From assembly GCA_016195965.1 (NCBI GenBank), contig JACPYR010000089.1, positions 1 through 44,734 of the forward strand: a DNA stretch of 44,734 nt. The letters are read 5' to 3'. Below are positions 26,140-44,734 of the stretch, in pieces. Source of the DNA: Nitrosomonadales bacterium. Lineage in GTDB: Bacteria > Pseudomonadota > Gammaproteobacteria > Burkholderiales > Gallionellaceae. Position 1 is the first letter of the stretch. Each line of letters starts with the position of its first letter. Below the pieces are notes generated by a model that saw only the letters and a list, made by a program, of their open reading frames with translations, did not search any database and had not been told where the DNA came from. The translations under genes and the position numbers were made by a program.

Positions 26140-26227
26140 GGCAACTCCTCACTCGATCACGACCGGAAACGAAGATTACTCTCATGCAGAATCACCGGTC
26201 AATCAGGAAAATCCTAAAATTCCTGCC

Positions 26228-26348: not shown

Positions 26349-26393
26349 TTCCTTGATTCGCGACCATTGTATGGCAACTCCACGAGCGACTAG

Positions 26394-26595: not shown

Positions 26596-26603
26596 GGAGC
26601 TTC

Positions 26604-27644: not shown

Positions 27645-29405
27645 TCACTTACACACATAATAGGCGATCGCCTCGCTGCCGCGTTGCGCGAACTCCAGCT
27701 TATAGGCCAAGCCTTTTACCAGCGCGATGCCCCGGCCATATTGTTCGACCTGCCCGCCCCCTTGGATTGCGGCATAGTCAAATCCTTTGCCGCTATCGGC
27801 GACACGGATTTTTACACCATACATATCCTCAATAACCACCTTCTCGATTTCGATATCTATGTTGCCGGTGTCCAGTGCGCGCAGCCGCTCTTCACGCAGT
27901 AGCAAAAATTGCTCGAAACCATCCGCGCCCTGTTTGATTGCGGAATCGAGATGCAGCACCCCATGGTCAAGGGCGTTGTTGAACAGTTCGGACAAAATCA
28001 GTAACAGGGCCGAATGATGGTCGCGGGTGGCATGGATTTGCGCGATGACTTGCGTGAGCAGCGGTATCACCTCGACATATTTCAGCTCATCCGCACCCAG
28101 GCTGATGGCCAACCGCCAATCGCTATCCAGGGCTTTAGGGGAACCCCGATGCATCAGTTCGTCCGAACTTTCCGCTACGGGCATGCTGATCATCGCCAGC
28201 GAAATATCGTCATGCGCCGGTTGCCCGCACAAATGGCGTTCCAGGCCATCCAGAAGCTCATCGAATCGCCCTTGCGGTGGGGCATGCTCCAGAAACACGT
28301 CGATCCGTTCAGTGCCGAATTGGACGCCATAAGGTGATTCGGCCTCCGGCAAACCATCCGAAAACAGGAACAACTGGCAATCTTGTTTATATTGGAACGC
28401 CTCCGTTCCGGAAGAGAAATCCCGCTTGCCCAATATACCCAAAGGCAAGTTGCTGGATGGCCATTTGCGCAAAATATCCCCGTCCGCACCGATGAGCACT
28501 GGCGCGGGATTCCCGCCGTTCCACACCTCGATGGCCTGGTTGCGCAAATTGACCGAAATCAGGGTTGCGGAGACAAAACGATCCACCGGCATAAATTTGT
28601 GGATCTTCTGGTTCAACTCCTCCACTATCCGCGCGATGCCAAAGCCTTTTTTGGTCATCGCATAAAAAGCCTGGCTAAGCGGCAAAACGTTCATCGCGGC
28701 GGTCAGGCCGTGGCCGACCGCATCGGCGAGCAGGATATGCAATACATCGCCCGGAGTCCGTGCGGCAAGAATCATGTCGCCGCTGTAATAAAACGCCGGG
28801 CTGATCTTATGGCGCACCAGAGAGTCCAGCGTGCTGTTCATATTGCTGATGCGCATCATGATGTCGCTGCCGATACGCAATTCTTCCTCGCTGCTATCGC
28901 GGTATTTCTCCAGCGCCATGATTTTTTCGGCGAGCCGCTGTTGCGATTCGACGATGAAATCCAAACTGGACTTCACGATCGTCTCCGCAGCAGGTATTCC
29001 TGCCCGCAATGCCTGGTAACAATGTTCTGCGGCAGCAACTTGTGCATCCATCGGCTTGTAGCGCAGCGAGACATAGCCGACCATCTCGCTATCGGCTATC
29101 CAGGGGGATATATTGGCTTCCACCCAGTAGTAGTCGCCATTTTTGCAGCGGTTCTTGATCACCCGGTTCCATGGCTTGCCCGATTGTATGGACTTCCAGC
29201 AATCGGCGAAAACCTCTGCAGGTACATCGGGATGGCGGATTAAGTTATGCGGCGCACCGAGCAACTCCCCTTCGCTGTAACCGGAAATTTCACAAAAAGG
29301 GCGATTGCAATAGGTGATGACGCCCTTGAGGTTGGTTCTGGAAACCAGCACCTCGCCTTCCGGAACCAGACGCTCAATATCGGTAACAGGCAGATTGATC
29401 CGCAT
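27645..29405 (-). CDS. Aer-type PAS / PP2C (SpoIIE) phosphatase / HATPase switch protein
   Basis: The 586-residue soluble protein has three modules. The PAS domain (about 18-120) is of the Aer aerotaxis type, with PHNLIRHPDVP and VIKNRCKNGDYYWVEAN. Arg57, His58 and Asp60 align at the same numbers as the FAD-binding residues of E. coli Aer. A PP2C/SpoIIE phosphatase (about 205-395; LLADAVGHGLTAAM, LFLFSDGLPEAE, HDDISLAMI) follows. The C-terminal RsbW-like ATPase has LSELFNNALDHG, VADSGKGFD and QYGRGIALVKGL. It probably phosphorylates and dephosphorylates the adjacent STAS protein in response to redox state. The ATG at 29405 has AAGG upstream; a GTG at 29432 is an alternative. Confidence 0.88.
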   Translation of the reverse strand: MRINLPVTDIERLVPEGEVLVSRTNLKGVITYCNRPFCEISGYSEGELLGAPHNLIRHPDVPAEVFADCWKSIQSGKPWNRVIKNRCKNGDYYWVEANISPWIADSEMVGYVSLRYKPMDAQVAAAEHCYQALRAGIPAAETIVKSSLDFIVESQQRLAEKIMALEKYRDSSEEELRIGSDIMMRISNMNSTLDSLVRHKISPAFYYSGDMILAARTPGDVLHILLADAVGHGLTAAMNVLPLSQAFYAMTKKGFGIARIVEELNQKIHKFMPVDRFVSATLISVNLRNQAIEVWNGGNPAPVLIGADGDILRKWPSSNLPLGILGKRDFSSGTEAFQYKQDCQLFLFSDGLPEAESPYGVQFGTERIDVFLEHAPPQGRFDELLDGLERHLCGQPAHDDISLAMISMPVAESSDELMHRGSPKALDSDWRLAISLGADELKYVEVIPLLTQVIAQIHATRDHHSALLLILSELFNNALDHGVLHLDSAIKQGADGFEQFLLLREERLRALDTGNIDIEIEKVVIEDMYGVKIRVADSGKGFDYAAIQGGGQVEQYGRGIALVKGLAYKLEFAQRGSEAIAYYVCK

Positions 29406-29446
29406 CGCACCCACCTTCAATTCAACGACCACATTATCGGCACGGA

Positions 29447-29761
29447 TTAATTGGCGCGCCTGATATTGAATATCTTGCCGAAGTTCGCGACCTCCAGAAC
29501 CTGCGATACCACGTCTGAAGAATTGAGCAGCGTAACGGATTTATTGGTTGCCTTGGCGCGCTCGTTCAGCAACATCAACATACCCAACGCGGAGCTATCC
29601 AGATAATCCACGTTGCTCATCTCGACCTCAATTTCGCGCACCGCGGCATTTTCCAGCACCGGAGTATAGGCATCCTTGAATTCGCGATGCACATGAAAAT
29701 CGAAACGGCCCGACATCGCAAGACGTGCGGTGCTGTCCTTTACTAGCGTGCTGATGCTCAT
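29447..29761 (-). CDS. STAS-domain anti-sigma factor antagonist (SpoIIAA/RsbV-like)
   Basis: This 104-residue single STAS domain has the phosphorylatable serine segment YLDSSALGMLML (Ser56/Ser57), as in SpoIIAA and RsbV. Such proteins bind a kinase/anti-sigma partner when unphosphorylated. The ATG at 29761 has AAAGGGGA upstream; an ATG at 29779 lacks one. It directly precedes the Aer-PAS/PP2C/HATPase gene (41 bp), a natural kinase/phosphatase partner. Confidence 0.9.
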   Translation of the reverse strand: MSISTLVKDSTARLAMSGRFDFHVHREFKDAYTPVLENAAVREIEVEMSNVDYLDSSALGMLMLLNERAKATNKSVTLLNSSDVVSQVLEVANFGKIFNIRRAN

Positions 29762-30160
29762 GATGATCCCCTTTATCAATGGAAATTAGACCCGATTGCC
29801 TTTGCCGAAGTGCGTGACCTGATACTCGAAAGTATAGCGGGCAATTCTCTGTAACGGCATTATCTCGCAAATCCCGCTCGTTGTGTCCGCCCTCCTTGAT
29901 CGCCTCGTTTATTTTGGTGAATGCACATCAATTCTCCAGCGCCTTAACTTCCCGAGTTTATATATACATCCCCGCTAGTGTAGTGTTGCATTCTGTTTGG
30001 AACTTAACTTCTCCAGTGGGAGCGGCTTTAGCCGCGATGGGTCGCTCGAGTTTATTGTCCGCATCGCGGCTAAAGCCGCTCCCACATAGGACTTGCTTGA
30101 TAACTCAATTGAGTTTAATCAACAGTACAACGCTACACTAGTATCAGTTTCGCCTGAGGC
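29762..30160. other. 399-bp gap between cheD and the STAS gene
   Basis: The cheD-proximal part is a 168-bp MITE copy (29975-30142). The remaining ~210 bp before the STAS gene has no gene. It holds a small hairpin ATACT-cgaa-AGTAT (29822-29835) and presumably the STAS promoter, which I could not place. In many betaproteobacterial chemotaxis operons cheB follows cheD; there is no trace of it here. Confidence 0.6.
29975..30142. mobile_element. MITE copy 1 with CTAGTGTAG terminal inverted repeats
   Basis: This 168-bp element starts CTAGTGTAGTGTTGCATT and ends with the inverse of CTAGTGTAGCGTTGTACTG. Inside is a perfect 24-bp-arm hairpin (30016-30039 and 30062-30085) built on GTGGGAGCGGCTTTAGCCGC. 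The segments TTCTGTTTGGAACTTAACTT and GGACTTGCTTGATAACT are shared with the second copy at 42860-43025. There is no coding capacity. TA at each end suggests a TA target. Confidence 0.85.
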
Positions 30161-30775
30161 TCAATTGAACAATTCCACATCTCCCTCCAGCGCGGCAAAA
30201 TGCAGCCGGGTGCTGTAGTCGGTTTCGCGGTTGATGATCGTATCGTTATGCATTTTTTTCAATTTCTTAACCCTGACCAATCCGTTATTGGGGAAGAAAT
30301 ACACCTTGCGCGGATAAATATCGAGCAAGTCCTCGGCGACGATGGAAATTTTTTCCGTCCGGAGAAACCTCAGCACGAATTCAGCATTGCGCTCGCCGAC
30401 ATTAGCGACGGTGAAGCCGCGCAGCACCGCGCCGCCGCCGAATACTTTCGCCTCCAGATTTCCGCGTTTCGCGCCCAGTTTGAGCAACTGGTTAATCAAT
30501 ATTTCCATCGCGTAGGTTCCATAGCGCGCCGAATCGCCCAACGGATTATTTTTATCCAGGCCACCTTCCGGCAACATGAAATGGTTCATGCCGCCGATAC
30601 CGTTGACCTTATCGCGCATACAGGCGCACACACAGGAACCGAGCACCGTTACCAGCAACATGTCGCGTGCCGTCGCATAATATTCCCCGGGCAATATCTT
30701 GGCTGCCTCGGTATTATGCTGCCGGTCAAAATAAATATTGGGTGCCAGCAATTCTTCATAACCATGTTCGGTCAT
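30161..30775 (-). CDS. cheD: Chemoreceptor glutamine deamidase CheD
   Basis: CheD deamidates receptor glutamines to glutamates and tunes chemoreceptor output. The 204-residue protein has catalytic Cys48 (VLGSCVCACM) and His65 (GGMNHFMLP) in the spacing of characterised CheD proteins, plus the KVFGGGAVL segment. The C-terminal 50 residues extend past the usual domain and end GDVELFN. The hexapeptide GDVELF also ends the chemoreceptor at 34304-35575. The ATG has GGGGG upstream and follows cheR closely. Confidence 0.93.
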   Translation of the reverse strand: MTEHGYEELLAPNIYFDRQHNTEAAKILPGEYYATARDMLLVTVLGSCVCACMRDKVNGIGGMNHFMLPEGGLDKNNPLGDSARYGTYAMEILINQLLKLGAKRGNLEAKVFGGGAVLRGFTVANVGERNAEFVLRFLRTEKISIVAEDLLDIYPRKVYFFPNNGLVRVKKLKKMHNDTIINRETDYSTRLHFAALEGDVELFN

Positions 30776-30813
30776 GGCGTCCCCCTTTCCAAAAAGTTGT
30801 CGTGATCGACAAA

Positions 30814-31686
30814 TTATTTTTCATGGTGAACAATTAATCCCGGCTTGGCCAATTCATACACCGTCTTGCCGCGCAAACGGAACACATGAGCGGCGTTGTG
30901 AAAACTCTCCGAATGGCCGGCAAACAGCCAGCCATCCGGCCGCAGCAATGGCGCAAACCGTTCCAATATCCTGAGCTGCGTTTCCTTGTCGAAATAGATC
31001 ATCACATTGCGGCAAAAAATCGCATCCAGCGGAGAGCGTATCGGCCAATCGTCGCCGAGCAAATTGACCTGTCTAAAACGAATCATCGCGCGCAGTTCCG
31101 GTTTCACCCGCACCCAACCGGATCGCTCCCCGGTCCCCTGAAGAAAAAAACGCTTCAGCACATTGGCAGATAATTTTTCGACGCGCTCGACCGGATAAAC
31201 ACCCGCTTCCGCCCTGGCCAGCACATTGGTATCCACATCGGACGCGATGATGGACACGGGCGGGGTAAAACTGCCAAAGGCATCCACCATGGCCATCGCC
31301 ATCGAGTATGGCTCTTCGCCCGTCGAGGCAGCCGAACACCACAGCGCAATGGGGTGCCGGCCTTGCTGTCGGAGTACATGTTCGGCCAACAGCGGAAAAT
31401 GATGCGGCTCACGGAAAAAAGCCGTCAGATTGGTGGTGAGCGAATTGACGAACGCCTCCCATTCTGCCGCATTGTCGCTTTCCAGCAAGGCCAGATATTC
31501 GCGAAAGTTGCCTATCCCGGTCGCGCGCAGCCGCCGTGCCAGGCGGCTGTACACCATGTCCTGCTTGGATTGGTTCAGCGAAATTCCCGCGTGTGCATAA
31601 ATCAACTGCCGGACCCGATCGAAATCCTTGCCGGTAAATTCAAATTCACGGTCGCGCCCGCTGGCGGATTGCATGTTCGTATCCAT
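30814..31686 (-). CDS. cheR: Chemotaxis methyltransferase CheR
   Basis: CheR methylates receptor glutamates using S-adenosylmethionine. The 290-residue protein has the N-terminal helical domain with SRLARRLRATG, and the SAM site LWCSAASTGEEPYSMAM. The catalytic-domain segments TTNLTAFFREPHHF, SDVDTNVLARAEAGVY and FCRNVMIYF are also present. It lacks a TPR tail. A large receptor at the right of the window ends in a CheR-type tether pentapeptide (EWKEF). GGGGA precedes the ATG. Confidence 0.95.
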   Translation of the reverse strand: MDTNMQSASGRDREFEFTGKDFDRVRQLIYAHAGISLNQSKQDMVYSRLARRLRATGIGNFREYLALLESDNAAEWEAFVNSLTTNLTAFFREPHHFPLLAEHVLRQQGRHPIALWCSAASTGEEPYSMAMAMVDAFGSFTPPVSIIASDVDTNVLARAEAGVYPVERVEKLSANVLKRFFLQGTGERSGWVRVKPELRAMIRFRQVNLLGDDWPIRSPLDAIFCRNVMIYFDKETQLRILERFAPLLRPDGWLFAGHSESFHNAAHVFRLRGKTVYELAKPGLIVHHEK

Positions 31687-31792
31687 AGTATCCCCGCTTG
31701 CATGGGTTCAATAATTAATCGGGCGCATGCATTAACCGAGCAACATTCCTCCTGATGCGGCCCGCACCACATCCCGCGATTCGAACAACTCG

Positions 31793-33844
31793 TCATTGCT
31801 GCGCCAGCTTGACCAATGCGGCCACGTCTATGATGATCGCCACCCGGCCATCACCCATGATGGTCGCGCCGGAAACACCCTGCACCTTGCGGTAATTGGT
31901 TTCCAGGCTCTTGATCACCACCTGGTGTTCCCCGACCAGCTCATCTACAAGCAGCGCGACCTTCTTCCCTTCGGCCTCCAGCAACACCACTATCCCATCC
32001 TCTGGCCTGGTCACCCTGGGCTTGATATTGAATAACTGGTGCAACGCGATCAGTGGCAGATATTCCCCGCGCACATGCACCACCTGCCCCTGGCCGCTGA
32101 TGCCCTTGATGCTCTCCGAACTGGGTTGCAGTGATTCGTTGATAAAGCTGAGCGGGATGATATAAATCTGGCCGCCTACCGCGAGGGATAAGCCATCCAA
32201 TATCGCCAATGTCAGCGGCAATCGTACCGTGATGGTGCTGCCCTCTTCCGCCTTGGAGTAAATTTCGACGCGACCACCTATACTTTCGATGTTTCGTTTC
32301 ACCACGTCCATGCCTACCCCTCGCCCGGAAACATCCGTAACCACCTGGGCTGTGGAAAAACCCGGGGCGAACGTCATCAGCCAGACTTCGGCATCGCTGA
32401 TGTTGTCGTTGAAAGGTATGCCCTTCTCGCTGGCCTTGGCGAGTATCCGTTCACGATTCATCCCGGCGCCATCGTCCGTTACCTGAATAACGATATTGCC
32501 ACCCTGATGGGCCGCGCGCAGCGTAATGGTGCCTTGCGGATCCTTGCCCTTGGCGATGCGTTCGTCCGGCATTTCGACGCCATGATCCAGGCTGTTGCGC
32601 ACCAGATGGGTGAGCGGATCGCTGATTTTCTCGATCAAACCCTTGTCCAGCTCGGTGCCCTCTCCGACCAACTTCAGTTGCACTTTCTTGTCCAGCTTGC
32701 CTGCCAAATCGCGCACCAGGCGCGGAAAACGGCTGAACACGAAATTGATCGGCATCATGCGCACCGACATCACGGATTCCTGAAGCTCCCGGGTATTGCG
32801 TTCGAGTTGCGCCAAGCCCTTGACCAGCCGCTCGTGCATCACCTGATCCATTTTTGAGGCCACTTCGGCCAGCATGGACTGGGTGATCACCAGCTCGCCG
32901 ACCAGGTTGATCATCTGGTCGACTTTTTCAACACTGACGCGTATCGAAGTTTCTGCCGATGCTGCCGCCTTGTCGGTGGCACGGCGCTGCGGGACCTCGC
33001 CCGGATTAACGTCCGGAGCAGGCGCTTGCCCACGATTTTCCAGATCGACAAAGAAGCCATAGCCCTGAGCGTTCTCCACCTCGGCTTTGACCTGCTCCGG
33101 CTCCACAAAAAAACCATAGCCTGCATCATCGGCTGAACTGGTGCCGACTATCGCAGCGCTTGCGCCAGACAAGTTGATAACCAATTGCCCCGGCTCCAGG
33201 AAGAACGAAAAAATATCGCGCAATTCCGCTTCGGACGCAGCTGTAGTCAGCGATAGCGCCACCGACTCCGCTGCAATTTGCTGATTTTCGATTTTCCCGA
33301 TATTCCCCAAGTCTTCCAGCAGATTGTTCAACTGGCTTGCTTCTGGAAATATCGCGGACGAGTTCGGGAAATTTATCTGGTAGATATGCTGTCCGGGTTG
33401 ATCCGATGCCGCGACAGGTGCGCTGCCGGGCTGGGCGAACGACGGCTGCCCACTATCCTTGCCGGCCAACTTTTCCAACCTGGCACGAATGCCCAGCGAT
33501 GCAGTTTCATCGGCGACAGTTCCGTTCTGGTGTGCCATCAATAAACCGCGCAGCACATCGCCAGCCTGCAAAAATGCATCAACCATATCGCTGGTGATGG
33601 CGATTTCATTTTTTCTGATACGATCCAGCAGGGTTTCCAGCACATGCGTCACTTCGGTCATGTCGGTAAAACCGAAAGTGCCGCTGCCCCCCTTGATCGA
33701 ATGGGCGGCGCGGAAAATCGCATTGAGCTGATCCGCATCGGGCGCATCCAGATCGAGCGCGAGCAACAAGCTCTCCATACTCTCCAGGTGTTCGGCGGAC
33801 TCCTCGAAGAACACCTGATAAAACTGGCTCATATCGATGGACAT
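31793..33844 (-). CDS. cheA: Chemotaxis histidine kinase CheA
   Basis: The 683-residue kinase contains the P1 HPt domain with His48 (RAAHSIKGGSG), a P2-like CheY-docking domain (about 152-226), then the P3 dimerisation, P4 ATPase (HLVRNSLDHGVE, DDGAGMNRE, GRGVGMDVV) and P5 CheW-like domains. Between P2 and P3 lie two copies of a GYGFF motif (242-246 and 261-265) in a charged, disordered linker. AGGGAA precedes the ATG. It follows cheY by 56 bp. No cheW is present, so the coupling protein must be encoded elsewhere. Confidence 0.95.
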   Translation of the reverse strand: MSIDMSQFYQVFFEESAEHLESMESLLLALDLDAPDADQLNAIFRAAHSIKGGSGTFGFTDMTEVTHVLETLLDRIRKNEIAITSDMVDAFLQAGDVLRGLLMAHQNGTVADETASLGIRARLEKLAGKDSGQPSFAQPGSAPVAASDQPGQHIYQINFPNSSAIFPEASQLNNLLEDLGNIGKIENQQIAAESVALSLTTAASEAELRDIFSFFLEPGQLVINLSGASAAIVGTSSADDAGYGFFVEPEQVKAEVENAQGYGFFVDLENRGQAPAPDVNPGEVPQRRATDKAAASAETSIRVSVEKVDQMINLVGELVITQSMLAEVASKMDQVMHERLVKGLAQLERNTRELQESVMSVRMMPINFVFSRFPRLVRDLAGKLDKKVQLKLVGEGTELDKGLIEKISDPLTHLVRNSLDHGVEMPDERIAKGKDPQGTITLRAAHQGGNIVIQVTDDGAGMNRERILAKASEKGIPFNDNISDAEVWLMTFAPGFSTAQVVTDVSGRGVGMDVVKRNIESIGGRVEIYSKAEEGSTITVRLPLTLAILDGLSLAVGGQIYIIPLSFINESLQPSSESIKGISGQGQVVHVRGEYLPLIALHQLFNIKPRVTRPEDGIVVLLEAEGKKVALLVDELVGEHQVVIKSLETNYRKVQGVSGATIMGDGRVAIIIDVAALVKLAQQ

Positions 33845-33899
33845 AGACTGTTCCCTGATGTGGTGTGATGAAATACCGGTTTAAATCGCGCACATGGCA

Positions 33900-34265
33900 C
33901 TAACCAATCACCTTCTTGACGACCTCCAGTAATTTTTGCGGGTCGAACGGCTTGACCAGCCAACCTGTCGCGCCCACCGCCCTGCCTTGCGATTTCATCG
34001 CATCGCTGGACTCCGTGGTCAGCATCAAAATCGGTGTTGCCTGGTACTGCGGCAAACCGCGCAAGGTCTTGATCAGGGTCAAGCCATCCATCCTAGGCAT
34101 GTTCTGGTCGGTCAGCACCAGGTCAACGGCATGCGCCTTGGCCTTGTTCACCCCCTCCTCTCCATCTGCCGCTTCAACTACAGCATAACCGGCAGACTTG
34201 AGGGTGAAAGTCACCATTTGGCGGATAGAAACAGAATCATCAACTGTCAATACGGTTTTAACCAT
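33900..34265 (-). CDS. cheY: CheY-like response regulator
   Basis: This 121-residue stand-alone receiver has Asp9/Asp10, phospho-acceptor Asp53 (VLTDQNMPRMDG), Thr83 and Lys105 (WLVKPFDP). The start at 34265 is supported by TGGAGT upstream; the frame extends to 34307 but would overlap the receptor gene. Its place between receptor and cheA makes it the likely direct target of this CheA. Confidence 0.93.
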   Translation of the reverse strand: MVKTVLTVDDSVSIRQMVTFTLKSAGYAVVEAADGEEGVNKAKAHAVDLVLTDQNMPRMDGLTLIKTLRGLPQYQATPILMLTTESSDAMKSQGRAVGATGWLVKPFDPQKLLEVVKKVIG

Positions 34266-34303
34266 GTTGATACTCCATTTATCATCCAATGAATTAACTG
34301 AAT

Positions 34304-35575
34304 TCAAAACAACTCGACGTCTCCTGTCGAAAAATTTTCCTGCGCTACCGGATTGGATTTTCTTGCGTCAAATAACACCACATGCTCATGCAACAAACGG
34401 TTATAAGCATCGATCTGCTGCAAGTACTCGCTGCGGTTAGGGCTATCAGCCCCCTGGCTCATCTGATTGGCGACTTCCTGCAGGGCTGCCATGCGCATCT
34501 GGGCGTGCGCGATCAGTTGCGAACTCATGTCCTGGAATTGCAATGTGGACACGGCCACCGCCACATTTTTCTCGACCTTGGCGCTGATCTGTCCCAGTTC
34601 AACGGCATTCTTCGCCATCGCCTCATTGAGTTGCGTCAGGTCGGCCATCATCTTCTGGACATGCTGTTTGGAATCCATCACATAAGTCATATCGCTGGCC
34701 GCCAACTTGTTAATGGACTGTTCCGCGCTAACCAGCGACTCGCTGACATTGCCCACCAAATAGCGGATCTGGCTGCTGAACTTGTTGGTCTTCTCGGAAA
34801 GATTGCGCACCTCATCCGCCACGACCGCAAAGCCGCGCCCGGATTCGCCCGCACGGGCGGCTTCTATCGCCGCATTCAGCGCCAACAGGTTAGTCTGTTT
34901 GGCGATGCCCTCCACCTCATTCAGGATGTGCAGGATGCTGGTGACCTGTTCGTCTATCACATCCATTTTCTCCACCAGCTCCATCGCGCGCTTGCTGTTC
35001 TGCACGGTGGTATCGACAAACTCATTCATCACCTCCGAAGTGGCACTGACAAAGTCCTCGAATTTATGTTTCGCATTTGCTCCCCCATCACCCATATTCC
35101 CGTTCGACATATTGATGGTCAGGGCTTGCTGCGCGCGTACTTCTTCGGCCATCGCGGTGAAATTTTCGACTAGCTTGGCGATCGCGTCGCCGAGTATGGC
35201 CTGGGTGTTGCCCAGTTCGGTATGAGCCGAGGCAAGCTGGCTGAAAACTTCTTTGCCCAATTGCACATGGAACGTATTGCTCTGATGGATCAGCGGCGCA
35301 TCGGCCTGCATGGCCAGTTCCGGGTTATTTCCGTTTTTATCGCCTGACACGGCCTGCTTCAGCAGATATACCCAAGCCACCTCGATTGCCAGAAACAGCA
35401 AAGCGTCGGCCAGCACTATCTCGATACTGGAGAAATACAGCGCATGCCCGCACAGCAAAACACCGATCAACAACGTGCCGCTAAACGCAAGACGAAATGG
35501 TTTTGCATGCATCGGCAATCCCTGAAATATCATCAGGTCACTTCTTTTCCCGTGACTTTCTGCCCAGGAGTTCAT
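34304..35575 (-). CDS. Methyl-accepting chemotaxis protein with two TM helices and almost no periplasmic domain
   Basis: The 423-residue receptor has paired helices (about 27-48 and 52-72) with a loop of only a few residues, so it cannot hold a periplasmic ligand domain. A cytoplasmic coiled-coil follows, with the conserved hairpin tip [20 protein letters not shown] and [17 protein letters not shown]. No HAMP was recognised. The C terminus is GDVELF, identical to the hexapeptide near the end of CheD. The ATG overlaps the upstream stop in an ATGA arrangement; internal ATGs at 35533 and 35512 are alternatives. It may sense membrane or cytoplasmic signals. Confidence 0.88.
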
Positions 35576-38500
35576 GACAGCAACACCGCGAATTCCCGCG
35601 CCGGAATGGGGCGGCTAATCAAATATCCCTGGATCACGTCGCAACCGTTTTCGATCAGGAAATTTTTTTGGCTCTCGGTTTCTACCCCTTCGGCCACCAC
35701 GGCCAGATTAAACTCGGATGCCAGCTGGATGATCGCTCGTGGAATGGCCGTTTTCGACAAGTTGTCCAACTGCCCCGGTTCCGGGATTTCGATAATGAAC
35801 GAACGGTCAATTTTCAGTTCGCTGATCGGCAAATCCTTCAGGTATTTAAGACTAGAATAGCCTGTGCCAAAATCGTCGATAGACAGGTGGAAACCCAGTT
35901 CTTTCAACTGCGCCAGCACCTGCAGCGTTCTTTCCGAATTATCCATCACCACACCTTCGGTTACCTCGATCGGCAACATCGCGGGACGGATATCCCACTT
36001 CTGCAAGCTGCTGCGCAACGCCCCCACCAAATCGCCGCGCCAGAAATGTATCGGGGAGATATTGATGGATACTGGAATTTCACGCAGCCCCAGCCTGCGC
36101 CAGGCGTCAAGTTGTGCACATACCGCATCGATGATCCATTCGCTCATCTCGATCACCGCTCCGTTTTTCTCGGCGAGCGGAATAAATTCGGCTGGCGATA
36201 CTACGCCGAATGCGGGGTGCCCCCAGCGTACCAATGCTTCGGCGCCCACCACGCGGCTCTGGCTGAACGAAAACTTCGGTTGATACAGCATGTAGAATTC
36301 ATTTTTCTGCAGGCCGGGCTTGATACCATGTTGCAGCGTAACCTCGCGCTCTTCGCGCTGGCTGATCGACTTGTCAAAAAATCGGTAGGTATCGCCGCCG
36401 GCCAGTTGCGCCTGATTCATCGCGCTGCTCGCGCTCTTGGCCAGCTCTTCATAGGTCACACCATCGGGCGTATACAAGCCGATACCGATGCTGACCCGCA
36501 ACTGGATCTCATGGCAATTCACCAGAACCGGCTGCCCGATCAAACGGGACATCTCCACCACGGCTTGCTCGATCACATCGCGTCCGCCTTGCCGGGATAT
36601 CAGCAGGGCGAATTCATCTCCACCCAGGCGGCACACGGTCTCTGTTTCCCCTATACAGTTCAATAACCGTTGCCCGACGGCAAACAACACCTCGTCTCCA
36701 ACACTCACCCCGAGTATGTTATTGATCTCGGTAAAATGATCCAGATTGATATGGATCATCGCCATAGCCTCCATCTTTTGTCCGGCATTTTCCAACAGCT
36801 CGTTGACCTTGCCCGCAAACATCTCCCGGTTCGGCAGATGGGTAAGGCTATCGTGCAGCTTCAACTGGCGCGCCTTCTCCTCATTGATCTTGAGTTCTGC
36901 ATTATCGGAAAACACAAAGTGGTATCCCACCCGTTTCCCGTCCTCTTCTTTGATCTCATTGACCGTTGACCACCCGGATACCGTGATGCCGTCCTTGTTC
37001 TGGCACAGCAATTCGCCCGACCAACTGCCCGTTTCTTCCAGCGTCTGCCACATCTGCTGGTAATAACCGGCCTCGTGTTTTCCCGAACTCAGCAGCATCG
37101 GGTTCTGACCGAGCATTTCATCCTGCGTATAACCGGTGATACGGCAAAATGCCGGATTGACGGCGGCAATCCGCTTCTGTCGGTCCACGGTAACCACCGC
37201 CAACGAGGATGCCCCCAACGCAGATGCCGCAAGACGCAAGCGGTTAAGCGCCTCGGATTGCCGGGCGCAAGCCTGGATGGTGCCGGTCAGCTTGCCGGGA
37301 TCCAGCGGCTTCAGATGAAACCGTGAAATACCCATCTCGAACATCCTCTCGGCATCTTCCGCATGGTCAGAACCGCTGATCACGATAATGGGCACATATT
37401 TGTCCAGTTTCCGGATTTCTTCGGCCATCTCCAGCCCGTTCATTCTGGGCATCTTGATGTCGGAAAGCACGATCTGCGGCCGATGCTTGATGAATAGCGC
37501 CAGCCCTTCGCTGCCATTTTTCGCGACATACACCATCACCAAACGGCGATTCAGGTAAAGGGCGAGATAGTCGCGCGTCAGATCGTCGTCTTCGACATAC
37601 AGCAGGGTCATCTGGTCCAGCGCCACGGGCGTTTCAATTTTTCCCGGGGTATCTACCACCGGAGGCAATTCAGTCCATACCGATGGCGGAACATTGCAAT
37701 CGAAATTTATTTCGAGCAAGGTAACATCGTCCACTCTGAATTGCCGTGCGGCTTCCTCGACTTTGCCGGACACCGAGCCGAATACATCCTGCGCGCAGCC
37801 ACCACCGAACAATTCATGCAATTTATTTTCGTTATCGAATTGCGGATCACAGGCTTGCAGCGTATCCACCAGCCCGTCGGTGTACAGGTAAATGCTCGCG
37901 TTCCGCTCCATCCTGAAGCGCTCCGCTTCCACCGAAAAGCTTTCTTCGCCGACCATACCCAACGCGGTCGATCTGGAATGACAGGTATGCAGCAAGGTTC
38001 CGGCATCATCGAATATGAGCGCCGCCGGATTGCCGCAATTCAGCACCTCGATAAAGTGCTCGCCGGGATTCAGGCGTACCAGAGTCGCCGCCACGAAGTG
38101 TTCGGTAATATTCTGCTCGTACAGGGAACGGTTCAATGCGGCGGCGATGGACAGCAGGGAAAATCCGCGCGATGCGCGCTGCTGGAAAATTCTCGGCACC
38201 TGCAGCGCCGGGATGACCGCAGACAGACCATGGCCCGCGCCGTCGGCCAGCATCACATACAGGTCGTCGTGGTATTTCTCCACGCTGTAAAAGTCCCCGC
38301 TCACCGCCAGCTTGGGGATGTTCAGATACCTGATGCTGGAAATTTCATCGCGATGGTTTGCCTCCAGATAGCGCGACACATAACTCTTGATGCATTCGCT
38401 CTGATAGTCTGTTTCATTCAGCATGGAGTCCATTTTCCGCAGACGACTCTGCAGCTTGCGCCCCTGATCCAGCGATTCAGCCACGCTGACCAGCGTAGCC

Positions 38501-38883
38501 ATCAGCACATCGGTATCCACCGGCTTGACGATAAACTTGACGATTCCCAAATCGATAGACGAGAGCAGCACGTCGCTCTCGTTGTGCGCAGAAATCAGGA
38601 TCAACGGAATTTCATGGTCTATCTCGCGTATTGCGCGGCACATGTCCAGCCCATCCATCCCGCCCATGCGTATGTCCGAAATAACCAGATCGGGATGCTG
38701 CCCCTTGAACATATCCAGGCCCGCCAGCCCGTTATGCGTCGCGTGCACCCGGTTGACCCGCCGCGCCAGGTAACTCGCCATATTTTCGCGCGCCTCGTCG
38801 TCGTCCTCGACAAACAGCACGGAAAGTTTAGCCAACAATGCGGCCTTCGCGGCCCCTTCCCCGCCGGTTTCAATGGATAACAT
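35572..38883 (-). CDS. Multidomain response regulator REC-PP2C-REC-PAS-GGDEF-EAL
   Basis: The 1103-residue soluble protein has six modules: REC1 (about 20-135, Asp70), a PP2C/SpoIIE phosphatase (about 190-395; [27 protein letters not shown]), REC2 (about 425-540, Asp475), PAS (555-665), GGDEF (675-840) and EAL (845-1095). GGDEF is intact, but the upstream inhibitory-site RxxD is replaced by ETET. EAL keeps the expected residues ([38 protein letters not shown]). It can therefore in principle act on both a phospho-STAS protein and c-di-GMP. The ATG (GGGAG upstream) overlaps the kinase gene by 14 bp, pointing to that kinase as its phosphodonor. Confidence 0.9.
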
Positions 38884-41005
38884 GTTCGCTCCCTGTTGCG
38901 GCACGCGGCAAGTACACGGTAAACCTGGCGCCCCCCGCCACGTTCCGCGCCTCGATCCGGCCTTTCATGTTTTTCTCGATGGTGACGAGCGTCATGTACA
39001 AACCGATCCCGACGCCATTCTCCTTGGTGGTGAAGTGCGGCTCGAATATCCTGGGCAACACTTCCCGAGGAATTCCGCCGCCATTGTCGGTCACGCTATG
39101 CACCGCAAATTCGCCTTCCTCGCCGATCTCGATGACGATCTCGCCGGCCTCGATTTTTCTGGCGACAATAGCGTCCTTGGCGTTGCTCAGGATATTCATC
39201 ACCGCCTGCGAATACTCGTTGGCATAGCCGTTGACGGCCACATCTTGCCCGCAGCGCACGACAATATTGATGTGGTTGTTTTTCATTGAAGCGTCAAGCA
39301 GATTGATGCATTCGTCGGTCACTTGCTTCAGGCTGAATATCCCCATGCTCTTGTCAGCCCGGAAGAAGTGGCGAAAATCATCTATGGTGCTGGACATCTT
39401 CTGGATAATTTTCTTGGACTTGCCGACGGCCGTCTTGATATAGGCCAGATCGCATTCTCCATAGAGTGCTGAATCCTCCAGGTCGCTGAGTATTAATCCC
39501 AGGGAATTGATGGGTTGGCGCCATTGATGGGCGATATTGCCTATCATCTCGCCCATCCCCGCCAATCTGGATTGGCGCTGCAATAGCGCATCCTTTTCCA
39601 TATTCTTCTGGATCTCCTCGCGCACCCGCGTATCCAGTTCCCGATTCAACCGGATCAACGCCTCTTCCGCCAATTTCTGCGCATGGATGTCGTGCATCAC
39701 GCCGACGACCTGGGCCACTTGTCCATCGACCGCGCGGTTCGGCGTCATATTCATGCTGAGCCAGCGCCATGTGCCGTCGGCATGCCTGGCGCGATAACGC
39801 AAATCGGATACCTTGCCCCCATCCCTGATGACCCGATTGAAGCCTTCCATCAGCTTTTCCCGATCCGACGCATGAAACAGTTCCGCGTCGAGCAACTCCA
39901 CCAGCGTGTGGCCGACAAACATATCCGTGTTGTATCCCAGCATGTCCCGCACCTGATCCGACACGAATACCAGATTCAAATCGATATCCGCCGCCCAGAT
40001 AATTGCGCTGGCCGATTCCACAATGGATTTGAGTTGCGACTCGATTGCAGTCTGGCTGCTGGTATCCAACACGATCGCCAGCAACGAGCCGCCCAGCTCC
40101 TGTTCGAAAAATTGCAGGAACACCTCCACCGGATACAGGCTGCCGTCCTTGCGTCTATGCAAAGAATTGAACTTCCTGACGCTATTTTTGTTGCTCAACA
40201 CATGCCTGTTCAATTCTTCCGCCTCTTCGTCGGAAAAGCTGGCCTGGATGTCGTTGGGCGTCAACGCTTGCAACTCCTCCATCGTGTAGCCCAGATTCTC
40301 CAGCGCGCGCCGGTTGGCGAACGTGAAATGCCTGGTACGCGCATCGCACATGTATATCTCGTTGCGGCTTGCAGAAATGGTTTTATCCAGCATATGCAAC
40401 GCCGCATTGCTGGCTTTTTCCCTGTCCTCGGCAAACTTGCGTGCGCTGATATCCTCAACCACAACCAGACAAAAAATTTTCCGCTCATCGGCAACTGCCC
40501 TGAACAAACCATAAAGCGGCAGATTTAATCTCAGGCGTTTATTTCTGCCCGCCTGCTCGAACGGCAGTTCGCATGAAATATTTACATCCGACTCGAATGT
40601 CTCATCCAAAAATTTCCGGAACTGTTCCCGCCTATCCAGCGGCAAGAAATCGTCCAGAAAATAGCGCGTCAACCATCCCTCTTGAATCTCCCAATGACGT
40701 GATGCGGGAAATTTGGCATCACATATCCTGCCCTCGCGGTTCAGGAACAGGTAGCCGTTCTCTGCGGCTTCCTTCCAAGAAAGGCCTGGGTTATTGGCTG
40801 AAACTTTCTGCCTGAGGCGATTGAATTCTTCGCTCAACAGTTCTGTTTCAATCTGGTTGATGCGTAATTCATACAGCTGCCGCGCAATGTCGTGCTGTTG
40901 CGACGAACTCTCTTCAGCCTGCTCTTGCCGCAAACGGTCCTGTGCGGCCCTGCGCAAGGTGTCCATGTTGGCCAGTGCGGCATCGGTTGTATGTATCCTG
41001 TTCAT
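38870..41005 (-). CDS. Soluble sensor histidine kinase with three PAS-like domains
   Basis: The 711-residue protein has no TM helix. An N-terminal coiled coil (about 15-70) is followed by three PAS-like domains (about 75-190, 210-320 and 325-445). A coiled coil and a HisKA domain with His493 (NIAHQWRQPINSLG) come next, then a HATPase (NILSNAKDAIVA, TDNGGGIP, NGVGIGLYM). No receiver is attached. Its gene overlaps that of the REC-PP2C-REC-PAS-GGDEF-EAL protein, the probable partner. The ATG at 41005 has GGAG upstream; a GTG at 41023 is an alternative. Confidence 0.88.
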   Translation of the reverse strand: MNRIHTTDAALANMDTLRRAAQDRLRQEQAEESSSQQHDIARQLYELRINQIETELLSEEFNRLRQKVSANNPGLSWKEAAENGYLFLNREGRICDAKFPASRHWEIQEGWLTRYFLDDFLPLDRREQFRKFLDETFESDVNISCELPFEQAGRNKRLRLNLPLYGLFRAVADERKIFCLVVVEDISARKFAEDREKASNAALHMLDKTISASRNEIYMCDARTRHFTFANRRALENLGYTMEELQALTPNDIQASFSDEEAEELNRHVLSNKNSVRKFNSLHRRKDGSLYPVEVFLQFFEQELGGSLLAIVLDTSSQTAIESQLKSIVESASAIIWAADIDLNLVFVSDQVRDMLGYNTDMFVGHTLVELLDAELFHASDREKLMEGFNRVIRDGGKVSDLRYRARHADGTWRWLSMNMTPNRAVDGQVAQVVGVMHDIHAQKLAEEALIRLNRELDTRVREEIQKNMEKDALLQRQSRLAGMGEMIGNIAHQWRQPINSLGLILSDLEDSALYGECDLAYIKTAVGKSKKIIQKMSSTIDDFRHFFRADKSMGIFSLKQVTDECINLLDASMKNNHINIVVRCGQDVAVNGYANEYSQAVMNILSNAKDAIVARKIEAGEIVIEIGEEGEFAVHSVTDNGGGIPREVLPRIFEPHFTTKENGVGIGLYMTLVTIEKNMKGRIEARNVAGGARFTVYLPRAATGSEHVIH

Positions 41006-41023
41006 CGCATCTCCGTACTTCAC

Positions 41024-41224
41024 TTAGTCCTGAGCCATGGCGAGGCACTCTTCACGCCACAGGCATTCAAATTGTTGGCACACCCGGTTATACGTAGACG
41101 CACAGCAATCGTAATTTCCTTCGACACGCTGAAATTTCCTGATCAATTCGATCTTGGCGGATTTGTTCACCTTCACGGCAGGATCGCCAAGCGTGACTTG
41201 CTCGTTTGAATTGATGCCGCTCAT
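41024..41224 (-). CDS. Small Cys-rich conserved-looking protein of unknown function
   Basis: This 66-residue protein starts MSGINSNEQVTLGDPAVKVN and ends with a segment holding five cysteines (DCCASTYNRVCQQ, then FECLWREECLAMAQD). There is no signal peptide or TM helix. The start at 41224 follows AGGGGGC, a strong ribosome site; a longer frame reaching 41281 overlaps the porin gene. The Cys spacing is not a pattern I recognise; metal binding or a redox role is possible but not shown. It lies between the porin and the three-PAS kinase in the same direction and could be an accessory factor for either. Confidence 0.7.
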   Translation of the reverse strand: MSGINSNEQVTLGDPAVKVNKSAKIELIRKFQRVEGNYDCCASTYNRVCQQFECLWREECLAMAQD

Positions 41225-41240
41225 AGCGCCCCCTGAAAAA

Positions 41241-42635
41241 TTAAAAAACCACCTCGGCACGAATGCCTGCCACCCTGGCATTGCCGAGCAGCGGATTCAT
41301 GTTGGGATTCCGGATATATTGAACCAGCGGTTGCAGCACAAACCAGGGTTTGATCTGGCTGCGATAAGTTGCCTCGATCACCGTTTCCGCATTGGTCGAT
41401 GCGGCGAGCAGCCGGTATTTGGCGCCGGCATGGCTTGTGGTGACGGCAATGCCGGCCATATCGTCGTCGCGCCCCGCCAACATGCCGCGGTAACGCATTC
41501 CCGCGCTGGCCGACCAATCGGATTGATGCACCTCAGGATTGGCGATGCCGTAACGGACAAAGCCTGCCAGGCTTCGGGCCGGATGAGCCTCATCCCAGTA
41601 CAGGGTGCGTTCCGCCAGGACATAGGCGCCCTGGCGGGAGCGAGGCAATGGATTGCCTTGAGCGTCGGTTTCGGTCAGGTCGTTATAACTCCCGGAGTAT
41701 TTCCAAAAACCGATGGCCGTCTTGAAGATGGTTTCATATTTTTCATGCAACAGGATTAACGGGTCCATCCTGGCTGCCACTCCTGGGGTGACGGGTTCGA
41801 AATTATGTCCTTCTTCCAGCGGGGTGTAGCCTATTTCGGCAATGGCAAATTTTCCGTCCTGCTGGTCGAAATAAAGGTGAGTGCTGCCCGGGTTGTTCAC
41901 ATCGCCCGGAATGGCGTCGTTGATTGCCACCATCAGATAGGCCGTGCGCCTGGGCGAGCTGTATTTGGTGCGTATGCCGAAAGTCGACATATTGAATATC
42001 GGCGGGCTATGCGCCACGCGTCCGTTGTTGGCGACCTGCGCCACTTCCGAGGCCATGCCGTAAGGCGGATGGATGAAAACGCCAGAGGCTTCGGTGACAT
42101 AAAATTCGGAATCTATCGGATACAGTCCGGCCAGCACCGAAAGACTGCCGGAATAAAAGTTTTTTTGCATCCAAGCCTGGAAGAAACCGGTGCGGTCTTG
42201 CCCCACTTCGATGTTGTCCACTCCGGTAAAGCTGCCTACATAGTCGAGGTTCATCTTGGCTCCCGAATCGATGTTGTAATGCAGATAGGCCGAAGTCCCG
42301 TCCCAGCCCAGTACTTTTTCCAGATCCATACTGGCCTGGAGTTCGGTGTGCCTGAGCCATCCCGATCCTCCAGCGATGCCACCCTTGCTGTTGTCCAGCC
42401 AATCGCTCTTGTGCGCAAATGCAAAAATCAGCCCCTTGCCATACAGATCGGAACGCATGCCGCCCCAATCTCCGCTCAGGGTCCGGCTGCTCCAACCCTG
42501 TTTGTCATCTTCAATGGCCAGCGCCGCAGCGATGGGCGCGTTCAATGCCGCAAACAACAGGCAGCTCCATACAACAAACCCTATCACCGCAAGGATCGCG
42601 CGTCTGGCGCCGAAAATAATGGCTGGTTGTTGCAT
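41241..42635 (-). CDS. OprB-family carbohydrate-selective porin
   Basis: The 464-residue precursor has a hydrophobic signal segment (about 9-34, ending near APIAAALA) and the family motif TLSGDWGGMRSDLYGKG. A beta-barrel body rich in aromatic residues follows, and the protein ends in Phe, as outer membrane proteins do. The ATG at 42635 has GGAG 6 nt upstream; an ATG at 42647 and an upstream frame to 42767 are less likely. It reads into the small Cys-rich gene and the signalling genes, so solute entry may be tied to the sensory locus. Substrate unknown. Confidence 0.85.
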   Translation of the reverse strand: MQQPAIIFGARRAILAVIGFVVWSCLLFAALNAPIAAALAIEDDKQGWSSRTLSGDWGGMRSDLYGKGLIFAFAHKSDWLDNSKGGIAGGSGWLRHTELQASMDLEKVLGWDGTSAYLHYNIDSGAKMNLDYVGSFTGVDNIEVGQDRTGFFQAWMQKNFYSGSLSVLAGLYPIDSEFYVTEASGVFIHPPYGMASEVAQVANNGRVAHSPPIFNMSTFGIRTKYSSPRRTAYLMVAINDAIPGDVNNPGSTHLYFDQQDGKFAIAEIGYTPLEEGHNFEPVTPGVAARMDPLILLHEKYETIFKTAIGFWKYSGSYNDLTETDAQGNPLPRSRQGAYVLAERTLYWDEAHPARSLAGFVRYGIANPEVHQSDWSASAGMRYRGMLAGRDDDMAGIAVTTSHAGAKYRLLAASTNAETVIEATYRSQIKPWFVLQPLVQYIRNPNMNPLLGNARVAGIRAEVVF

Positions 42636-42859: not shown

Positions 42860-43025
42860 TAGTGTAGTGTTGCATTCTGTTTGGAACTTAACTTCTTCTG
42901 TGGGAGCGGCTTTAGCCGCGATGCTGACAGTGAAATCCAGCGGCCAATCGCGGCTTAAGCCGCTCCCACAAAGGACTTGCTTGATAACTGCATTAAGTTT
43001 CATCATCAGTGCAACGCTACACTAG
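42860..43025. mobile_element. MITE copy 2 with CTAGTGTAG terminal inverted repeats
   Basis: This 166-bp relative of the element at 29975-30142 has the same ends, the same GTGGGAGCGGCTTTAGCCGCGAT hairpin arm start (arms 42900-42922 and 42947-42969, one mismatch), and the same TTCTGTTTGGAACTTAACTT and GGACTTGCTTGATAACT segments. Only the hairpin loop region differs strongly. Its right end overlaps the stop codon of the large chemoreceptor gene. Confidence 0.85.
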
Positions 43026-44734
43026 AACTCTTTCCACTCGCCGTCTTCGCCAGATGTCTGTGCCCCATGGCCATTGCCGCCACGGGCCTTGATCACCGCA
43101 GGATGAACCGGCTTGCCCGCCGCAGGCCGGACTGCGCCCTTGACCGGGCGCCGCGCGATGGCCGCCTGGCCGGACGGAATCGCATGAGTCACCGCTGCCG
43201 CTACACGGGGCACAACTTCGCCGCCCGCACGACCGTCCACCTTGAATGTCCCCACCGCAACCGCGAGGTTCTGCGCCTGCTCTTCCAGCGATTCGGCTGC
43301 AGCAGCCGCTTCTTCGACCAAGGCCGCATTCTGCTGGGTCACTTCGTCCATCTGCGTGATCGCGGTGTTGACCTGCTCTATGCCCTGGCTCTGCTCCGCA
43401 GACGCCGCCGTGATCTCGCTCATGATGTCGGTGACGCGACGGATGCTGGACACGATCTCTTCCATCGTCTGCCCGGCCTGTGCCACCAGCTTGGAACCTC
43501 CCTCCACCTTCTCCACCGAGTCGCCGATCAGCGTCTTGATCTCCTTCGCCGCCGCAGCGCTTCTCTGCGCCAGGTTCCTCACCTCGCCCGCCACCACCGC
43601 GAAGCCCCGCCCCTGCTCACCCGCACGGGCGGCTTCCACCGCCGCGTTCAATGCCAGGATGTTGGTCTGGAAGGCGATGCCGTCTATCACGGAAATGATG
43701 TCCACGATCTTGCGCGACGATTCGTTGATCGAGTCCATCGTCGTCACCACTTCTCCGACCACCGTGCCGCCACGGCCCGCCACGTCCGACGCGCTGATCG
43801 CGAGCTGGTTGGCCTGCTTGGCGTTCTCGGCGTTCTGCTTCACGGTGGACGTCAGTTCTTCCATGCTGCTGGCGGTCTCTTCGAGTGAAGACGCCTGCTC
43901 CTCGGTGCGCTGCGACAGATCGCTGTTGCCTGCGGCGATTTCCTTGGATGCGGTGTTAATCGTGTCGGTTGCTTCCTTGATCTGCCCTACCAGATCTTTC
44001 AGGTTGGCGACGGTGCCGTTGACCGCTTCCTTGGTCTGTCCAAACACGCCGGGGTAGTCCTTGCTGATGCTCTGGGTCAGGTCGCCACGGGCCAACAGGT
44101 TGGCCACGCGCAGCACGTCGTTCAGCCCGGTCTCGGTGACCGTGGACAGTTGGTTGAGCAGATCGGACAGTTCCTTGGTATAGCCCTGCTTACCCGCCAT
44201 GTCCATCTTGACGCTGAAGTCGCCGCGCACCGCCGCCGCTTCGACGATGTTCTTGATCTCGCCGACGATCTTGGTCAGCGCATCGACGGTGTTGTTCACA
44301 CCCACCTTGGTCTGGCCGAATACGCCGGGGTAATCCTTGGTGATGCGCTGGGACAGGTCACCATTGGCCAGCGCGGTCGCCACGCGGGTCACGTCGTTCA
44401 GCCCGGTCTCGGACACACTCGACAGGCTGTTCAGCAGGTCGGACAGCTCCTTGGTGTAGCCCGCCTTGCCGTTCAAGTCCATCTTGACGCTGAAGTCGCC
44501 GCGCACCGCCGCCGCCTCGACGATGCTCTTGATCTCGGCGACGATGGCCCGCAGGCTGTCCTGCATGGTCTTCAGCGAATACAGCAGGCTACTGGTATCA
44601 CCAACCTTTAGCGCCAGATTCACGCTCAGGTCGCCTGCGGCGATCTTGCCCACCGCATCGGCCGCATAGTCGGGTTCGCCGCCCAGCTGCTTCATCAGGT
44701 TACGTACGATGAAAAACGCGATGGCCACGCCAGC
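43022..44734 (-). CDS. Methyl-accepting chemotaxis protein with tandem HAMP-like repeats, 5' end missing
   Basis: The 570 visible residues begin inside the second TM helix ([13 protein letters not shown]), so the sensor domain lies beyond the window. A first HAMP is followed by two ~92-residue repeats (each starting [16 protein letters not shown]). The signalling domain has the hairpin tip [20 protein letters not shown] and [19 protein letters not shown] Gly/Ala/Pro-rich tether of about 60 residues ends in EWKEF, which fits the CheR/CheB-docking pentapeptide pattern (aromatic at positions 2 and 5). The TAG stop lies inside the end of MITE copy 2. Confidence 0.93.
43973..44524 (-). repeat. Two tandem 276-bp coding repeats in the chemoreceptor
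   Basis: Unit 1 (44249-44524) and unit 2 (43973-44248) encode 92-residue poly-HAMP modules. Both contain [26 protein letters not shown] and [11 protein letters not shown]. The DNA is similar enough for unit loss or gain by recombination. Confidence 0.85.

Follow-up and report, generated by a model that had tools for sequence, protein, structure and literature searches.

A second, F7-like chemosensory cluster with a STAS partner switch beside a candidate c-di-GMP module in a Nitrosomonadales bacterium

The window analysed here, a stretch of 44,734 nucleotides from contig JACPYR010000089.1 of a Nitrosomonadales bacterium (Gallionellaceae; assembly GCA_016195965.1), carries on its minus strand, read from 41.3 down to 27.6 kb, a Cys-rich open reading frame (ORF) followed by g4, g5, g6, the genes for CheY, CheA, CheR and CheD, g11 and g12. 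A preliminary description of this DNA, made from the sequence alone, had taken these genes for a composite locus in which chemosensing, turnover of cyclic di-GMP (c-di-GMP) and a partner switch based on serine phosphorylation meet. The ORF list and Pfam searches agree with it that the genes it named are all present and all lie on the minus strand, and our analysis partly supports its interpretation as a whole. The receptor-cheY-cheA-cheR-cheD-STAS-PP2C/kinase core of the locus is not new: it repeats, in rearranged form, an F7-like chemosensory cluster of which it is the second copy. The bin to which the window belongs comprises 2.73 Mb in 95 contigs and is 83% complete, which bounds each absence from the bin reported below. 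The features of the locus are as follows.

27645..29432, minus strand: g12, an Aer-type PAS, PP2C (SpoIIE) and HATPase_c_2 (RsbW-like) protein of 595 amino acids (aa) (Pfam)
29447..29779, minus strand: g11, a single-domain STAS protein resembling anti-sigma-factor antagonists (Pfam STAS/STAS_2)
29789..29896, minus strand: remnant of a cheB C-terminus, 36 residues (tblastn with the CheB of C38, another contig of the bin)
29975..30141, no strand assigned: dispersed repeat of about 167 bp in the CheD-STAS gap (95% identical to the C38 copy)
30161..30775, minus strand: g10, CheD (Pfam CheD, 110.8 bits)
30814..31686, minus strand: g9, CheR methyltransferase (Pfam CheR and CheR_N)
31793..33844, minus strand: g8, CheA with Hpt, CheY-binding, dimerisation, HATPase and CheW domains (Pfam)
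33900..34307, minus strand: g7, CheY, with a likely true start at 34265 (Pfam Response_reg)
34304..35575, minus strand: g6, a chemoreceptor of 423 aa (Pfam MCPsignal)
35572..38904, minus strand: g5, a REC-PP2C-REC-PAS-GGDEF-EAL protein of 1110 aa (Pfam)
38870..41023, minus strand: g4, a PAS-PAS histidine kinase (Pfam PAS and HATPase_c)
41024..41281, minus strand: g3, a small Cys-rich ORF, 65 aa from an inner ATG at 41221 (no family)
43022-44734: a chemoreceptor truncated by the window edge, upstream of the porin gene

Of the several gene overlaps described at first, two are true, that of g4 with g5 (35 nt with a GTG start, smaller with a later ATG) and that of g5 with g6 (4 nt); with the likely CheY and STAS starts used, the remaining intergenic gaps measure 0-106 nt, except for 399 nt between CheD and STAS. 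The kinase g4 is indeed a PAS kinase, although of the three PAS domains once assigned to it Pfam recognises just two, and its N-terminal stretch matches nothing at an E-value of 1. HisKA was not matched in the Pfam search of g4, and the HQWRQP motif points to His499 as the likely phospho-acceptor.

Motif strings expected around the residues that we take to be catalytic in PP2C phosphatases, RsbW-type ATPases, GGDEF and EAL domains, CheA, CheY and STAS proteins are present throughout the locus, that is, in both PP2C domains, the RsbW-type ATPase, the GGDEF and EAL domains, and at the CheA His, the CheY Asp and the STAS Ser. In g12 they comprise SGDM (217), ADAVGHG (236), SDG (358), HDD (407), ELFNNALDHG (482) and GRG (566), and this protein is probably a bifunctional STAS phosphatase and kinase. 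Since g12 would already combine the two activities, the two phosphatases that had been proposed to converge on one STAS protein are unnecessary. The PAS domain of g12 has the solved Aer PAS structure 8dik as its best match (E 7.4e-37) and shares with it an RHPD stretch and a Trp, presumably residues that bind flavin adenine dinucleotide (FAD); the domain probably holds FAD. This Aer-type PAS stands ahead of the PP2C and HATPase domains at the place where a receiver would be expected from the receiver-PP2C-kinase order of HsbR and CrsR: g12 would function like HsbR, yet is no HsbR. The adjacent g11 scores 59.0 bits against the NCBIfam model ant_ant_sig (cut-off 53.45) and aligns to SpoIIAA (1th8). 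As in HsbA and CrsA, a single STAS domain carries a predicted phosphorylatable Ser, the candidate site being Ser56 when numbered from the MSIS start at 29761.

In the order, 124 of 250 genomes match g12 at an E-value of 1e-40, and in the family 63 of 100 do so; part of these matches cover the PAS domain alone. We took 60 stretches around high-scoring matches, a non-random sample in which some stretches are cut by contig ends and four are without a PP2C-HATPase gene (two continuation stretches and two REC-PP2C loci), and compared 61 PP2C-HATPase ORFs, a set that includes the one on C38 and excludes that of the window. This revealed a STAS gene less than 600 bp upstream in 45 of the 61 and no more than 4 kb upstream in 53, with CheR, CheD or CheB within 13 kb upstream in 40. 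The usual order in many relatives is receptor-cheY-cheA-cheW-receptors-cheR-cheD-cheB-STAS-PP2C/HATPase. At the N-terminus, 39 of the ORFs have a receiver, 13 an Aer-type PAS and nine another input domain, and in a tree of 62 PP2C-kinases the PAS forms fall into two separate, supported groups. From the counts in relatives it therefore follows that the cluster regularly includes the switch, that the input domain of the switch has been exchanged, and that c-di-GMP genes are an occasional addition; the initial reading of g11 and g12 as a partner-switch pair is upheld by the company of such pairs with chemosensory genes in many relatives.

A fuller cluster, ordered receptor-cheY-cheA-cheW-two receptors-cheR-cheD-cheB-STAS-PAS/PP2C/HATPase, lies on contig C38. 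Identities between the two copies are 88% for CheY, 82% for CheR, 77% for CheA, 74% for CheD, 59-60% for STAS and 53% for g12 (52% in its PP2C-kinase part); g6, which occupies the site of a receptor of about 400 aa in related clusters, is 63% identical to the receptor adjoining the C38 CheY. The CheA of the window (g8; likely phospho-acceptor His48) scores 778 bits against the NCBIfam CheA model PRK10547, below its cut-off of 793. A tree of 37 CheAs resolved two groups (100/100 each), in one of which, of 20 rows, the window CheA sits as sister to that of C38 (96/89) together with most cheR/cheD-linked CheAs, whereas the CheZ-linked CheA of locus L112 falls in the other. The label F7 is taken from papers, as the CheA tree held no F7 reference sequence. 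By the gene content given for F7 clusters, the window copy has the STAS and PP2C genes and is without cheW, an aer2-like receptor and cheB; it lacks CheW, CheB and the large receptors that such clusters usually include, while CheW (by Pfam), an Aer-PAS receptor and CheB are found in the C38 cluster. We therefore read the window copy as derived and reduced. The CheD-STAS gap still contains a CheB remnant, which matches residues 330-365 of the C38 CheB at 50% identity (E 4.6e-7, tblastn). These features show that the second copy descends from a fuller cluster, whether by duplication in this genome or by gain from a relative.

Three other accounts of this second copy were considered. Simple duplication of the C38 cluster is not borne out for STAS, CheD and the PP2C-kinase part, which are nearer to congeners, despite the sister grouping of the CheAs; CheY is equally near to C38 and to the congener G305 (88% each), and in the PP2C-kinase tree g12 and its C38 counterpart share a four-member group (97/91) without being direct sisters. 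Insulation of a paralogous switch by selection against cross-talk was suggested by the greater difference of STAS and PP2C/kinase, relative to the Che proteins, between the window and C38; it was dropped because other pairs show a similar pattern, the Che proteins being the slower to diverge in most pairs compared. As to contamination of the bin, two 20-kb pieces of the window have tetranucleotide profiles (0.963 each) that fit the bin (0.957-0.983 for its own pieces, n=14), with the module alone, at 0.949, just below that range, yet the range of nine congener pieces (0.70-0.97) overlaps, and the comparison is not decisive.

The dispersed repeat carries a perfect 24-bp inverted repeat (GTGGGAGCGGCTTTAGCCGCGATG), and its copies, at 29975-30141 and 42860-43025 in the window and on C38 (L035 2918-3084 and others), span two contigs of the bin, one copy lying at the site of CheB loss. 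In the C38 copy, the PP2C/HATPase gene is followed by genes for an HDOD protein and an additional CheD (L036 41-1530), with pentose-phosphate genes further downstream (L036 4294-8630). At loci L116-L118 and L121-L123, from members of the family, STAS and PP2C/HATPase are separated by an ORF similar in size to the HDOD gene (285-298 aa) and by an additional CheD, and some of these loci have two PP2C/HATPase genes in tandem. The truncated receptor at 43022-44734, about 60% and, in its signalling part, 80% identical to two C38 receptors, may be a part of this cluster that has moved away from it. A profile search identified the porin upstream of the module as OprB. Downstream of the window copy (24316-27557) lie transaldolase-like and hydrogenase/dehydrogenase-like ORFs, recognised by eye. 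The Cys-rich g3 (C-terminus CCASTYNRVCQQFECLWREEC), which directly precedes g4, has no match in Pfam or NCBIfam and may or may not belong to the module.

In g5, the PP2C motifs SGDF (202), ADGAGHG (220), TDG (342) and VDD (391) are followed by GGDEF (761), EAL (889) and DDFGTG (1010), with no RxxD site just ahead of the GGDEF motif. The closest model for the C-terminal half is that of the phosphodiesterase DibA (521 bits, below the cut-off of 980), and we predict that this GGDEF-EAL half is most likely a net phosphodiesterase. Assignment of the N-terminus to RssB was rejected, NCBIfam RR_RssB_Pseudo giving 136.6 bits against a cut-off of 700. When the whole of g5 was used as query and two candidates were scored per genome, 186 of 300 genomes of the order matched at 1e-100, and among the matches listed those from other genomes start at residue 419 at the earliest; with residues 1-420 as query, 42 of 300 genomes matched, and among the matches listed the frames from other genomes have at most 666 aa. 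The full-length fusion was found solely in its own genome, among the matches listed. Against the genome_contigs collection the 560-residue N-terminus gave only two weak receiver matches, in a scan that used few exact peptide patterns, may omit the window's own genome and counts as weak evidence. The titles and abstract openings searched contain no description of a REC-PP2C fused to GGDEF-EAL. The preliminary description had not known the combination as a described system, which is wrong for che genes with a partner switch, as these are published (PMC9855816, PMC7184735).

The components of g5 also occur as separate genes. Kinase, REC-PP2C and REC-GGDEF stand in a row in G080 and G035 (L159, L160). 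G161 (L127) has REC-PAS-GGDEF-EAL and REC-PP2C together with a kinase that is truncated where the contig ends. A PP2C gene neighbours a separate c-di-GMP enzyme gene at L127, L159, L160, L174 and L176-L178, and an EAL fragment of 112 aa at L128. Across 22 stand-alone PP2C loci, picked by hand from the order, the family and the matches to the g5 N-terminus, a c-di-GMP gene is the direct same-strand neighbour in eight (one being the 112-aa fragment). The other ORFs at these loci have such a neighbour in 17 of 256 cases (Fisher p 2e-4), and ORFs from arbitrarily chosen pieces of the own genome in 5 of 220 (p 1e-6). These eight loci sustain the link between PP2C and c-di-GMP that had been drawn for this locus. 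Locus L038 has a GGDEF-EAL-REC protein and a PAS kinase between CheB and STAS, and in L124-L126, from three congeners, a REC-GGDEF gene follows directly behind PP2C/HATPase; these loci and L173 and L174 combine the same ingredients in other gene orders. L173 and L174, both of G331, bring a receptor and STAS together with PP2C and c-di-GMP enzymes (HD-GYP or GGDEF/EAL), without a full che set.

To consider what such a switch might control, we compared the occurrence of RpoS and flagellar genes. No genome of the genus (0/31) reached the NCBIfam cut-off for RpoS, as against 1 of 14 control genomes, and the matches below the cut-off include frames of RpoD and RpoH size (judged by size); the published RpoS output is therefore unlikely here. 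In eight of nine congener loci tested (L065, L109, L110, L112, L114, L115, L124 and L125), flhB comes one or two genes after PP2C/HATPase, the L115 stretch having no STAS or che genes upstream; at L064 the first gene, the only one examined, is not flhB. FlhA, a FliA-like sigma match and FlgM are encoded on the same contig in G115, G190, G278, G305 and G333. Across the genus, FlhA is found in 21, FlgM in 20 and Flg_bbr_C in 21 of 31 genomes, while the window's 83% complete bin has no match for FlhA, FlgM or Flg_bbr_C and no FliA-like match; since the flagellar genes lie close together in congeners, these absences are not independent. The bin has CheZ only in a weaker-scoring form (116 bits), and on the C38 contig HDOD, CheD and sugar-metabolism genes occupy the position expected for flhB. 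A search of the bin gave no other CheA of ordinary size; the bin also encodes a 1766-aa CheA with two Hpt domains (L212, contig C55) and a 1103-aa CheA-REC hybrid (L211, contig C95), probably of pilus-type and other chemosensory systems. Among the 13 genus genomes besides G000 scored for both, a g12 match is present in six of nine with FlhA (G115, G190, G278, G305, G331 and G333; absent from G308, G335 and G337) and in none of four without it (G291, G299, G323 and G326), so that the cassette usually goes with flagella, which counts against the loss reading. The missing flagellar matches in this incomplete bin make the motile/sessile output first proposed, at least in its flagellar form, doubtful here; flagellar genes were likely lost in this organism, and the output may have shifted to c-di-GMP.

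The reading that we favour, tentatively and at slightly less than even strength, is that the locus is a joined module in which the F7-like second copy, through its STAS switch, is tied to a two-component c-di-GMP module. The gene set, the motifs and the descent from a fuller cluster are read from the DNA, and from there we infer the mechanism as a whole. Receptor g6 and CheA/CheY (g8/g7), with adaptation by CheR and CheD, would read a signal, CheW and, if needed, CheB being supplied by the C38 cluster unless the copy works without them. The RsbW-like domain of g12 would phosphorylate Ser56 of g11 and the PP2C domain would dephosphorylate it, the Aer-type PAS deciding whether kinase or phosphatase prevails, such that the direct input would come from the redox or oxygen state and not from CheA phosphorylating a receiver. 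As g12 is without a receiver, it should not accept phosphoryl groups from CheA, and CheA/CheY would act in parallel or through contacts of the receptor or CheD. In the other half, g4 would phosphorylate the receivers of g5 and so set its PP2C and GGDEF-EAL parts. The two halves could meet at the STAS protein, where free or phosphorylated g11 would bind g5, in the manner of phosphorylated HsbA and HsbD, and/or the g5 PP2C would reset STAS. The output would be local c-di-GMP that affects surface behaviour, not RpoS. The mixtures of the same ingredients at L038, L173, L174 and L124-L126 and, by analogy, the published binding of a diguanylate cyclase by a STAS-type antagonist (PMC5085249) point towards such a joined module. 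A stronger form we consider unlikely: the switch, which in relatives mostly precedes flagellar genes, would here have a second copy freed from flagella and RpoS and rewired to c-di-GMP via g5, a single protein uniting a receiver-controlled STAS phosphatase with a GGDEF-EAL enzyme, and three inputs (chemoreceptor/CheA, redox PAS and PAS kinase) would converge on one STAS protein.

Several observations weigh against a joined module. The synteny of STAS and PP2C/HATPase with che genes is beyond chance in the relatives examined. Among the matches listed, the whole arrangement and the g5 fusion are found in this one genome only, which leaves the proposed steps from g4 to g5 and from g5 to STAS without a test of conservation. 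Just seven of the 61 PP2C-HATPase ORFs (L038, L066, L073, L074 and L124-L126) have a c-di-GMP gene in reach, either earlier in the row (four cases) or immediately after the ORF (four cases), and STAS lies within six genes in just 2 of the 22 stand-alone PP2C loci. STAS is 75-76% identical to its counterparts in G305 and G278, nearer than to C38 (60%), CheD 84% to G305 versus 74% to C38, and the PP2C-kinase part 60% to G305 versus 52% to C38. As the same fast divergence is seen elsewhere, that of g11 and g12 is no sign of a special function. The pair g4-g5 may be an unrelated neighbour, and the loss of CheW and CheB could mark a decaying copy.

Three rival explanations were weighed, whose likelihoods, like that of the joined module, are not mutually exclusive. 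Possible, although we lean against it, is that g6-g12 form a Che1/CrsRA-like switch beside which g4-g5 are an independent c-di-GMP regulator, the PP2C of g5 acting on another STAS protein. The bin has three other STAS-domain matches, that of C38 included; the C38 cluster is without a g4-g5-like neighbour; a kinase or c-di-GMP gene stands beside REC-PP2C without cheA, cheR or cheD at L159, L160, L163 and L176-L178; and the seven of 61 switch genes with a c-di-GMP gene in reach fit it too. The 4-nt overlap of g5 and g6, the single strand and small gaps from g4 to g12 save between CheD and STAS, and the mixed ingredients at L038, L173 and L174 speak for the joined module instead. It is improbable, if less so than decay, that the output is of HsbA type, with STAS freeing FliA from FlgM to control flagella and the flagellar genes simply unassembled: flhB follows the switch in 8/9 congener loci, FlhA, the FliA-like match and FlgM share a contig in five genomes, the g12 match is found in 6/9 congeners with FlhA versus 0/4 without, and the bin is 83% complete, but FlhA, FlgM, Flg_bbr_C and the FliA-like match are jointly absent from it (absences that are not independent), it has no further CheA of ordinary size, and on C38 other genes (HDOD, CheD, sugar metabolism) hold the flhB place. 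The CheB remnant, the repeat insertion and the lack of CheW and large receptors would suit a decaying copy without coherent function, which we nonetheless regard as very unlikely given that the remaining genes are open with the expected motifs and are 52-88% identical to C38, a level like that between genomes of the genus.

Replacement of a receiver by an Aer-type PAS on the same phosphatase/kinase would illustrate how a partner switch comes to respond to a different signal, and the PP2C-GGDEF-EAL fusion, if it acts as we read it, would couple serine phosphorylation and c-di-GMP within one molecule. Relatives that carry che genes, STAS, PP2C/kinase and often flhB, some with REC-GGDEF between, make both FlgM-FliA and c-di-GMP outputs directly testable, in a group with no RpoS above the cut-off.

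Among known systems, the Shewanella che1 locus, which encodes CrsR and CrsA beside six Che proteins and two receptors, has RpoS as a possible target (PMC9855816). The likeness of the window to this F7 system, Che1-CrsR-CrsA of Shewanella oneidensis, lies in the che genes and the partner switch; there RpoS is controlled, whereas the window has an Aer PAS on its regulator, no CheW or CheB, another gene order and a c-di-GMP module. An anti-sigma factor antagonist and a serine phosphatase are listed for the F7 'stage 1' and 'stage 2' clusters of V. cholerae, M. alcaliphilum, P. aeruginosa and S. oneidensis (PMC7184735), next to which the window copy is reduced. What the F7 cluster of V. cholerae does is, according to a review, poorly understood (PMC7534058). 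The Pseudomonas HsbR-HsbA pathway combines PP2C and kinase in one protein, has Ser56 in its antagonist and involves FlgM, and phosphorylated HsbA binds the diguanylate cyclase HsbD (PMC6482189, PMC5085249). The window resembles it in having one protein with PP2C and kinase and a candidate antagonist site at Ser56, but HptB feeds the HsbR receiver and HsbD is a diguanylate cyclase of the membrane with a GGDEF domain, while here the input is a PAS domain and the c-di-GMP protein is of REC-PP2C-REC-PAS-GGDEF-EAL type. In Pseudomonas SiaABCD, a switch of PP2C and antagonist is coupled to a diguanylate cyclase (PMC7647112). The switched residue of SiaC is Thr68, as opposed to the candidate Ser56 of the window STAS protein. 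SiaB is a separate kinase, and the sia operon adjoins che2. The stretch of g12 from PP2C to kinase matches the solved chain 3ke6 of Rv1364c (query 223-491, E 8.5e-7), a mycobacterial protein that has the order PAS-PP2C-RsbW plus a STAS domain of its own and with which we know of no chemosensory genes. Relative to the known core, the two unusual features here are the Aer PAS in place of a receiver on the regulator, and the kinase and g5 fusion in front of the cluster.

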